Below, one piece after another: positions 15,434 to 18,154 of a stretch of 52,470 nucleotides of DNA (position 1 is its first letter; each line of letters starts with the position of its first letter). The notes beneath the pieces were generated by a model that saw only the letters and a list, made by a program, of their open reading frames with translations, had not been told where the DNA came from and ran no database searches. The translations under genes were made by a program, and so were the position numbers. The stretch covers positions 1-52,470 of the forward strand of contig NZ_JASHHX010000024.1 of the NCBI RefSeq assembly GCF_030056575.1, read 5' to 3'. Origin of the DNA: Rhodoblastus sp. 17X3 (GTDB taxonomy: Bacteria; Pseudomonadota; Alphaproteobacteria; Rhizobiales; Beijerinckiaceae).

Positions 15434-18154
15434 ATGAATATTCAGGACAGAAACGACAGCAGGGCGCTCGCCCTTCCCATCGGCGGGATGACCTGCGCTT
15501 CCTGCGTGCGTCATGTCGAAGAGGCGCTCAAGGGCGCGCCGGGCGTGCGCGACGCCCAGGTCAATCTGGTCGGCGAGCGCGCCGACCTGACGCTGGGACC
15601 TGAGGCCGATCTTGCCGATCTCGCGGCGCGCGTGAAGGAGGCCGGCTACGAGCCGCGCCTGACCCATGTCGAGCTGGGCGTGGGCGGCATGACCTGCGCC
15701 TCCTGCGTCGCCCATGTCGAAAAGGCTCTGAAGGCCGCGCCCGGCGTGATGTCGGCGCGGGTCAATCTCGCCACCGAGCGCGCCTATGTCGACGGCCTGG
15801 AAGGGGTGATCACGCCCGCCGCCCTGGCCGAGGCGGTGCGCGGCGCGGGCTATGAACCGCGCTTGCAGACGCAGGAAAAAGCCGCGCTCGATCCCTTCGA
15901 GCGCCGCGCCGCCGAGACCGCGACGATGCGCCGGCGCTTCATTCTCGCCGCCGCGCTCGCCGCGCCGGTGACCATTCTGGAAATGGGCGGCCATATGTCG
16001 CCGGCCTTCGCCGCGCTGACGCATGGCGCTCTCGGCCATCAGGGCGTGATGCTTTTGACGGCGGCGCTGACGACGCTGGTCCTGTTCGGCCCCGGGCGGC
16101 GCTTTTTCACTTTGGGATTCAGCTCGCTGTTGCGCGGCGCGCCGGATATGAACGCCCTCGTCGCGCTCGGCGCCGGCGCGGCCTTTCTCTATTCCCTGAT
16201 TGCGACCTTCGCGCCGGATGTGCTGCCGGAGGGGACGCGCCATTCCTATTTCGAATCCGCCGCGATCATCGTCGCCTTTATCCTGCTGGGGCGCTGGCTG
16301 GAGGCGCGCTCGCGCGGCCGCGCTGCCGATTCGATTGGCAAGCTGGCGCGGCTCCAGCCCAAGACCGCCCATGTGCGGCGCCAGGAGCGTCCGGGCATGT
16401 TCGCGGTGCGCGATCTCTCGGTGGCGGACGTGCTGGTTGGCGATGTGGTCGAAGTGCGGCCCGGCGAATCCGTGCCTGTCGACGGACTGGTGATCGAGGG
16501 CGCGAGCCATGTCGACGAGAGTTTCATTTCCGGCGAATCCGTCCCGGTTGTAAAAAAGCCCGGCGATTCCGCGATTGGCGGCAGCGTCAATTTGGCCGGC
16601 GCCTTCGTGCTGCGCGCGACCAGGGTCGGCGCGGACAGCTTTCTCGCCGACGTCATCCGCATGGTCGAAACCGCGCAGGGCGCGCGACTGCCCATTCAGG
16701 ACCTCGCCGACCGCGTCACCGCGCGTTTCGTCCCGGTCGTGCTGATCCTCGCCGTGGCGACCTTCGCGATCTGGCTCGCTTTCGGCGGTCTCGCCGCTTT
16801 GCCGCTGGCTCTGGTCAGCGCGGTCAACGTGCTGATCATCGCCTGTCCCTGCGCCATGGGCCTCGCCACGCCCGCCGCTCTGGTGACAGGTACGGGCCGG
16901 GCGGCGGAGTTGGGCGTCATTTTCCGGCAAGGCGACGCTCTGCAAACTCTTTGCGGCGTCAAGACGGTCGCCTTCGACAAGACCGGCACGCTGACGCTCG
17001 GCAAGCCGACGCTGACCGGAATTATCGCGGGCGAGGGTTTTGACGAGGCGCGTCTGCTGTCGCTCGCGGCGGCGGTCGAGGCGCAATCGGAACATCCGCT
17101 CGGCCGCGCCCTTGTCGAGGCGGCCAAATCGGGGGCGGCGCCCTTGGCGGGACCGATCGCGCATTTCGCCTATCGTCCCGGTCTCGGCGTCACCGGGGAA
17201 GTCGACGGCGTCTCGGTTGCTGTGGGCTCGGCTGACCTGCTGACTTCGCTCGGCGCGGCGACGGACGTCTTCGCAGCGAAAGCCGAGGCGCTGGCGGGGC
17301 AGGGCGCATCCTGCTTCTTCATCGCGGTCGACGGCAAGCCGGCGGGCCTGTTCGCCTTTTCCGATCCGCCGCGCCCGGAGGCGGCGGAGGGCGTCGCGGC
17401 GTTGCGGGCGCTGGGCCTGCGGGTGGCGCTCATCACCGGCGACCGCGAGGCCACCGCGCGCGCCATTGCGGCGCGAATTGGAATTGACGAGATTTACGCC
17501 GGGCGCCGCCCGGAGGGCAAGGTCGCGGCGTTGCATGAACTCGCCAAGGCCGGGCCGGTGGCCTTCGTCGGAGACGGAATCAATGACGCGCCGGCGCTTG
17601 CCGCCGCCGATGTCGGGATCGCCATGGGCGCCGGAACGGATGTCGCGGTCGAAAGCGCGCAGGTGGCTCTGATGTCGAGCGATCTGCGCAAGGTCGCGCA
17701 GGCCTTCGCCCTGTCTCGCGCGACCCTGCGCACGATCAAACAGAATCTCGCCTGGGCTTTTGGCTATAATATCCTGCTGATTCCGCTGGCCATGGGTGCG
17801 CTCTATCCATCGAGCGGGCTGCTGCTCAATCCGGCGCTTGGCGCCGCCGCCATGGCTTGCTCAAGCCTGTTCGTTCTGGGCAATGCGCTGCGCCTGCGAC
17901 AATTTGCCGTCCCTTCCCAAGATGTTGGAGAGAAATCCGTGGCTCAAGTTCCCCAAACCATCTTCGCCGTCTCCGACATGACCTGCGGCCATTGCGCCGA
18001 CAGGGTACGGAAAGCCGCGCTTTCCGTGGCGCCCGGCTCTGACGTGCAGGTCGATCTGCCGTCCGGCGACGTCACATTGACGCCCGCCGCCGCCGACCCG
18101 GCGGCGGTGGCCAAGGCGATCACGGACGCCGGCTACCCGGCCGCCGCGAAATAG
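15434..18154 (+). CDS. copA: Copper-exporting P1B-type ATPase CopA with an extra C-terminal HMA (CopZ-like) domain
   Basis: 906 residues from ATG 15434. Two N-terminal HMA domains (GGMTCASC at about 18 and 88) are followed by eight membrane helices with the CPC site at 474-476, the TGE-like actuator (FISGESVPV), the phosphorylated DKTGT at 515 and GDGINDAPAL. The usual CopA C-terminus (SSLFVLGNALRLRQF) is reached near residue 828. The protein then continues through a short linker into a third HMA domain (SDMTCGHCADRVRKA, C851/C854). Copper or silver is pumped to the periplasm. A TTG at 15398 would add 12 residues without support. ccoG follows, consistent with copper traffic to a cbb3 oxidase. 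Confidence 0.9.
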   Translation: MNIQDRNDSRALALPIGGMTCASCVRHVEEALKGAPGVRDAQVNLVGERADLTLGPEADLADLAARVKEAGYEPRLTHVELGVGGMTCASCVAHVEKALKAAPGVMSARVNLATERAYVDGLEGVITPAALAEAVRGAGYEPRLQTQEKAALDPFERRAAETATMRRRFILAAALAAPVTILEMGGHMSPAFAALTHGALGHQGVMLLTAALTTLVLFGPGRRFFTLGFSSLLRGAPDMNALVALGAGAAFLYSLIATFAPDVLPEGTRHSYFESAAIIVAFILLGRWLEARSRGRAADSIGKLARLQPKTAHVRRQERPGMFAVRDLSVADVLVGDVVEVRPGESVPVDGLVIEGASHVDESFISGESVPVVKKPGDSAIGGSVNLAGAFVLRATRVGADSFLADVIRMVETAQGARLPIQDLADRVTARFVPVVLILAVATFAIWLAFGGLAALPLALVSAVNVLIIACPCAMGLATPAALVTGTGRAAELGVIFRQGDALQTLCGVKTVAFDKTGTLTLGKPTLTGIIAGEGFDEARLLSLAAAVEAQSEHPLGRALVEAAKSGAAPLAGPIAHFAYRPGLGVTGEVDGVSVAVGSADLLTSLGAATDVFAAKAEALAGQGASCFFIAVDGKPAGLFAFSDPPRPEAAEGVAALRALGLRVALITGDREATARAIAARIGIDEIYAGRRPEGKVAALHELAKAGPVAFVGDGINDAPALAAADVGIAMGAGTDVAVESAQVALMSSDLRKVAQAFALSRATLRTIKQNLAWAFGYNILLIPLAMGALYPSSGLLLNPALGAAAMACSSLFVLGNALRLRQFAVPSQDVGEKSVAQVPQTIFAVSDMTCGHCADRVRKAALSVAPGSDVQVDLPSGDVTLTPAAADPAAVAKAITDAGYPAAAK
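17939..18154 (+). CDS. Possible separately translated CopZ-like chaperone from an internal start
   Basis: Inside the copA frame, codon 836 is GTG, and GGAGAG at 17927-17932 lies 6 nt before it. Starting there gives a 71-residue protein that is a complete HMA domain (MTCGHC copper site), the usual length of a free CopZ chaperone. It may therefore be made both as the C-terminal domain of CopA and as a free protein. This is inferred from the sequence only. Confidence 0.4.
   Translation: MAQVPQTIFAVSDMTCGHCADRVRKAALSVAPGSDVQVDLPSGDVTLTPAAADPAAVAKAITDAGYPAAAK

Follow-up and report, generated by a model that had tools for sequence, protein, structure and literature searches.

In Rhodoblastus sp. 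17X3, the reading frame of the copper pump gene copA runs on past the pump into a further HMA domain, and a ribosome site with an in-frame start codon lies inside the joint. This arrangement raises the question of whether the gene encodes a single extended pump or two proteins, the pump and a free CopZ-like chaperone. We examined the locus in a 52,470-nucleotide stretch of the genome, here called the window, and in relatives from the genus to the phylum. Fused relatives keep the ribosome site and start codon at the seam, and the gene is therefore likely to yield a free chaperone as well as the pump. On sequence evidence, we put at about 80% the probability that copA and copZ were fused in frame, that internal initiation yields free CopZ beside the pump, and that both products have been kept by selection.

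The copA frame and its CopZ-like tail

The copA frame is open from TTG 15398 or ATG 15434 through the TAG at 18152-18154. We favored ATG 15434 as the start, since M-N-[I/L] recurs at the beginning of the gene in the genus (five of six fused and two of five unfused loci). The features of the locus are as follows:

15434..18154, + strand: fused copA-copZ gene for a copper P1B-type ATPase that carries an HMA domain at its C-terminus, 906 amino acids from the ATG
15476..15652, + strand: first N-terminal HMA domain (MTCASC; PF00403)
15680..15856, + strand: second N-terminal HMA domain (MTCASC; PF00403)
17882..17938, + strand: linker of 19 codons from the pump end (NALRLRQF) to the internal start
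17927..17932, + strand: GGAGAG, an internal Shine-Dalgarno-like stretch; all six fused genes of the genus share its GGAGA
17939..17941, + strand: internal start codon GTG; ATG in four of the six fused genes of the genus
17939..18154, + strand: predicted CopZ-like product, 71 codons from the internal GTG to the stop
17963..18136, + strand: C-terminal HMA domain (PF00403, 40.5 bits)
18283..19707, + strand: ccoG, cytochrome oxidase accessory protein, the next gene downstream, given for context only (TIGR02745, 525.7 bits against a cut-off of 316.7)

The pump was assigned to CopA by TIGR01511 (564.4 bits against a cut-off of 397) and by its CPC and DKTGT motifs; its score fell below the cut-off of the equivalog PRK10671 CopA (662.5 of 1316). 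From its sequence, it is predicted to be a Cu(I) transporter. The fusion protein contains three HMA (PF00403) stretches, and the frame and this search together confirmed the claim of an earlier note on this DNA that copA continues into a third HMA domain with MTCGHC. The ribosome site that the note described is also present: GGAGAG is followed, after six nucleotides (AAATCC), by the in-frame GTG from which the 71-residue product would begin. A simple scan of the + strand from 15200 to 18400 revealed no sigma-70 promoter before the internal start; other promoter types are possible.

At its other end, the copA ATG has no Shine-Dalgarno sequence. TATATC (15422-15427) lies six nucleotides before it and TTGAAT (15398-15403) 18 nucleotides further up, and an ATAT-like stretch before the copA ATG recurs in several relatives of the genus; the pump mRNA may therefore be leaderless. 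A 138-amino acid ORF (14985-15401) adjoins copA upstream. It gave no NCBIfam or Pfam match at E 0.001 and looks like a membrane protein by eye.

We then considered the 71-residue piece by itself. It matched HMA (PF00403) at E = 2e-10 and 41.3 bits, against a cut-off of 24.8. An AlphaFold2 model, built from four alignment rows with the first residue left out, had a mean pLDDT of 90.8 and secondary structure elements in the ferredoxin-like order E-H-E-E-H-E. The piece thus combines the size of about 70 amino acids, the ferredoxin-like fold and the MxCxxC motif that define CopZ-like chaperones in PMC7558416. That review assigns the MxCxHC form of the motif to CopZ2-like chaperones (PMC7558416), and MTCGHC fits this form. 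The His of MxCxHC is common to the 20 fusions found outside Methylocystis and Methylosinus and absent from the 41 within. The nearest solved sequences were the uncharacterized protein Atu1203 and copper-ATPase domains, and the best match to a curated CopZ family stayed below the cut-off (50.7 bits against 85 for CopZ_AFE_1862).

Fused and unfused genes in relatives

Eleven genomes of the window's genus were searched, of which six carry the fusion (G000, G002, G003, G006, G007 and G010) and five do not. In a sister species (G009), copZ overlaps the tail of copA by 14 nucleotides in another frame, with GGGAGG upstream; in G001, G004, G005 and G008, copA is followed by a small HMA frame separate from it (DNA read for G001, G004 and G005). 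Relatives with separate copA and copZ, a possibility raised by the earlier note, or with overlapping ones therefore make up 5 of the 11 genomes. A ccoG-like frame lies 3' of copZ in G009, as ccoG lies 3' of the fusion in the window. PF02461, searched as an indicator of methanotrophy of the host, matched in none of the 11 genomes, and the positive control was also without a match.

In the family survey, 132 of 397 genomes had a match, and loci were inspected among the matches listed. Among these, 30 of 35 genomes of g34, which we take to be Methylocystis, were fused (31 loci), and four carry copZ apart beside copA (G082, G184, G361 and G366); one g34 locus (L172 in G231) has a 106-amino acid HMA ORF, with no copA found in that stretch. 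All 10 genomes with a match in g58, presumably Methylosinus, were fused among the matches listed, and the tail of Methylosinus sporium is the same as that of g58. Searches of the order, class and phylum covered 397, 385 and 398 genomes, and fusions were counted at inspected loci only, so the counts are at least those given. They added three fused genomes in f29 g71, where G580 has a copA without a C-terminal HMA in the stretch examined, 10 fused genomes of 12 in family f124 (one with a broken pump frame), and one fused genome outside the class (G1387). L286 (G961) has an intact fused tail and ribosome site behind a pump frame that is interrupted before the joint. A search for plasmid-borne copies gave one weak match, in Paracoccus sp. 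(76% cover, 40% identity). The surveys from genus to phylum rule out a fusion confined to one species.

By PF00403 search, no stand-alone HMA gene was found in the window's genome (99.86% complete); its four HMA domains lie in the fusion gene (three) and in a 766-amino acid ORF. HMA ORFs shorter than 200 amino acids occurred in 8 of 8 unfused genomes and 2 of 15 fused genomes. Within the genus, the counts were 5 of 5 unfused and 1 of 6 fused (G002); in 12 further genomes, they were 3 of 3 unfused and 1 of 9 fused (G128), the last figure being biased because the nine were chosen from 40 fused genomes largely for few HMA matches. The small ORF of G002 (111 amino acids) lies 545 nucleotides from a 561-amino acid HMA ORF and so perhaps encodes MerP. 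Among the matches listed, small HMA ORFs of 96-134 amino acids (a few larger) occur in many more of the fused Methylocystis genomes, often beside HMA ORFs of 600-655 amino acids. Our reading is that such pairs would be MerP beside MerA.

The main phylogenetic tree was generated from 57 pump cores (LG+G4, with bootstrap), 43 of them fused; six of the 55 fused rows in the seam set (partial or near-copies) and six f124 genes added later were left out of the trees. On the main tree, the fused or unfused state needs three changes. Four unfused Methylocystis genes fall inside a clade of 29 (25 fused) with support of 100/99, and their separate copZ starts at the place matching the internal start of the fused genes. 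Most simply, these four are likely to reflect the splitting of a once-fused gene. A quicker tree of 83 rows needs five state changes; its root and the joining of f124 with G1387 are uncertain, the latter carrying a long-branch warning. An overlap in another frame, as in G009, is likely to represent the state before fusion. The overlapping and separate states in relatives support, as the probable origin, the earlier proposal that a copA stop codon was lost between formerly separate genes. Neighboring copA and copZ would first have come to overlap, and an in-frame change would then have fused them with the copZ ribosome site retained.

Such overlapping and closely spaced pairs make the loss of a stop codon easy, and only the free chaperone might matter, the fusion being a tolerated, useless translational run-on. 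The linkers argue against this explanation, which we consider unlikely. Across the 43 fused rows, the linkers come in 18 lengths and must have changed in length at least 19 times, against three changes of state on the same tree, with the frame open throughout; since the fused set is itself defined by its open frame, the comparison is indirect. Of random insertions and deletions, two in three would disrupt the frame. That the open frame outlasted so many changes suggests that the tethered form has been retained. Some Methylocystis linkers (L170, L171, L173 and L178) contain a peptide such as HREERSDEATQE..GSGLLRSARNDE, which resembles a repeat element inserted in frame.

The ribosome site and start codon at the seam

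As the seam start, we took the best-scoring ATG or GTG lying 5 to 22 codons upstream of the first Cys in the C-terminal HMA, and as the Shine-Dalgarno sequence a match of at least 4 nucleotides to TAAGGAGGTGAT at a register spacing of 3-10. Both were present at the HMA start in 61 of 61 C-terminal copA-HMA fusions examined, drawn from six groups of Proteobacteria (55 in the main seam set and six f124 genes added later). Fused homologues without a ribosome site and start would speak against internal initiation; we looked for them and found none among the loci inspected (0 of the 61 fusions). This comparative evidence supports internal initiation, put forward in the earlier note, as the mechanism by which the gene would give pump and chaperone. 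The note had also asked whether the joint is conserved: the Shine-Dalgarno sequence and a start are kept, but GTG itself is not, occurring in 3 of 55 genes with ATG in the other 52.

The signal was rare elsewhere in the same genes. At the joints, the match reached at least 4 nucleotides in 55 of 55, at least 5 in 47 and at least 6 in 38. The corresponding numbers for other in-frame ATG, GTG and TTG codons were 282, 54 and 5 of 2645, and 18-codon windows from other parts of the fused genes, to which the same best-of scoring was applied (37,260 windows), gave 8.4%, 1.8% and 0.14%. The N-terminal HMA domains of the same proteins carried a seam signal in 2 of 21 cases (second domain) and 3 of 21 (first domain). 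Chance is therefore an unlikely source of the signal, with the proviso that the fused rows share ancestry (L174 and L175 have similar joints) and do not amount to 55 independent events; on the 83-row tree, five changes of state suffice, not 61.

The window's own site, a 4-nucleotide GGAG with GTG, ranks among the weakest in the set. With so short a match and a GTG, it would not be striking alone; the evidence is its conservation. All six fused genes of the genus have a match of only 4 nucleotides, with GGAG followed after eight nucleotides by ATG in four genes and GTG in two (the window and its 95% identical sister). GGAGA and TG are identical in all six joints, but in a set of this size the same holds for many neighboring columns. 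In 39 distinct joints of Methylocystis and Methylosinus, AGGA (-11 to -8) was conserved at 97-100% and the start at 97-100%, against 38-85% for columns -45 to -15, values that are lowered by linker indels because the comparison was ungapped and anchored on the start.

Next, synonymous codons were redrawn with the amino acids fixed. A match of at least 4 nucleotides appeared in 14-21% of draws for the window's genus, 9% for G1387 and 24-100% for four f124 genes, with group means of 84-95% for Methylocystis, Methylosinus and f29 g71. Matches as long as those observed appeared, on average, in 17% (window's genus), 4% (G1387), 10% (f124) and 40-70% (the other three groups). In Methylocystis, Methylosinus and f29 g71, the peptide itself makes a match likely, so codon choice adds little; the test is moderately informative only in the window's genus, f124 and G1387. 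The window's genus alone is weak evidence, given its short match and the frequency with which synonymous draws keep it.

We also compared predicted mRNA structure at the joint with other 60-nucleotide windows of the same gene in 54 genes. By group medians, 0.98-0.99 of same-gene windows were more structured than the joint in this comparison, in which base composition was uncontrolled; the lowest single fraction among the values listed was 0.86 (L179). The window's joint had a value of -7.8 kcal/mol against a mean of -22.1.

These data bear on whether the seam is a relic, its ribosome site and start being dead leftovers of copZ in a gene that makes only the full-length fusion, with the C-terminal HMA as an extra metal-binding domain. 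Such a history would fit the single clean frame and the linker changes that stay in frame among fused genes, and copper ATPases with a C-terminal metal-binding domain exist, as in Archaeoglobus CopA. We nevertheless find it quite unlikely. AGGA and ATG are unchanged despite widely differing linkers, and mRNA structure is weak at the joint in all groups. The window's gene (L001) and L195 share 52% of 225 four-fold sites, whereas GGAGA and TG persist in every fused gene of the genus. In addition, the nested unfused Methylocystis genes begin copZ at the matching place. The persistence of the start's nucleotides, its spacing to the HMA and the weak mRNA structure argues that the free form, too, has been retained.

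Alternatively, the Shine-Dalgarno-like stretch could be a ribosome pause site that aids insertion of the last membrane helices. In the window, it does lie shortly after the membrane part of the pump, with the internal start 19 codons after NALRL. Across fusions, the signal tracks the HMA domain and not the membrane part: the start lies 10 or 11 codons before the first Cys in 49 of 55 genes (15 or 20 in the other 6), whereas its distance from NAL[RKL] ranges from 19 to 80 codons. Pausing also predicts neither a properly spaced start codon nor weak mRNA structure, which makes it a very improbable explanation. A sequencing or assembly error that removed a stop codon, or a lone pseudogene, can be dismissed, as six species of the genus, including one at 95% identity, have the same open fusion.

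A probable two-protein gene and its known parallels

In the two-product reading, ribosomes starting at the copA ATG would make the full-length pump with its own CopZ domain as a tail, and ribosomes binding the Shine-Dalgarno sequence inside the joint would begin at the internal GTG, where most relatives have ATG, and yield free CopZ of about 7 kDa. This would be the only stand-alone HMA protein that the genome appears able to make, and it would ferry Cu(I) to CopA. We infer its production, the selection for both products and the Cu(I) ferrying from the comparisons above. An annotation based solely on open frames would presumably record just the pump, as though the genome lacked CopZ. In the window's genus, a leaderless pump start and a Shine-Dalgarno-paired chaperone start may allow the ratio of the products to shift with growth state. 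Given the neighboring ccoG, a link between the free chaperone and oxidase assembly is possible.

A broader scenario is held only tentatively. Separate fusions may have arisen in several proteobacterial lines, reversibly and each time with the copZ ribosome site kept; the tethered form would feed the pump, the free form would serve other copper targets such as oxidase assembly, and ribosome traffic on one mRNA would set the ratio. The system would then be an example of a fusion that recurs without giving up the possibility of two products, and living relatives show the overlapping state, the fused state and what looks like a renewed split. Methylocystis and Methylosinus are methanotrophs whose methane oxidation depends on copper.

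Our literature search, conducted mostly on titles and the openings of abstracts, found no published account of a copA-copZ fusion with an internal start. Several known systems share parts of the arrangement. copA-copZ operons, present in the unfused relatives, encode the same two activities side by side; in the window, the two frames form a single one. Archaeoglobus fulgidus CopA is likewise a copper ATPase with a C-terminal metal-binding HMA domain, and we know of no free product from it. The CopZ of that organism is fused to an iron-sulfur domain (PMC7558416). The closest mechanistic parallel is Cas11, the C-terminal part of Cas8b, made as a separate protein from an internal in-frame start with a Shine-Dalgarno-like sequence inside cas8b, as described in PMC11899642. 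Here, the same elements are read from sequence, and a membrane transporter and a soluble metal carrier take the place of a CRISPR effector subunit.

The functional parallel is E. coli CopA(Z), in which the released HMA domain is the N-terminal one. As outlined in PMC7558416, E. coli copA gives both the pump and a free HMA chaperone from one gene by ribosomal frameshifting; the window's gene is predicted to give its own pair by another mechanism, because the proposed free product is C-terminal and its translation would be initiated internally, from a ribosome site of its own. If the two-product reading is correct, the fusion is a second, independent way for one gene to supply a copper pump together with its chaperone, using the opposite end of the protein and another translational route than E. 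coli.
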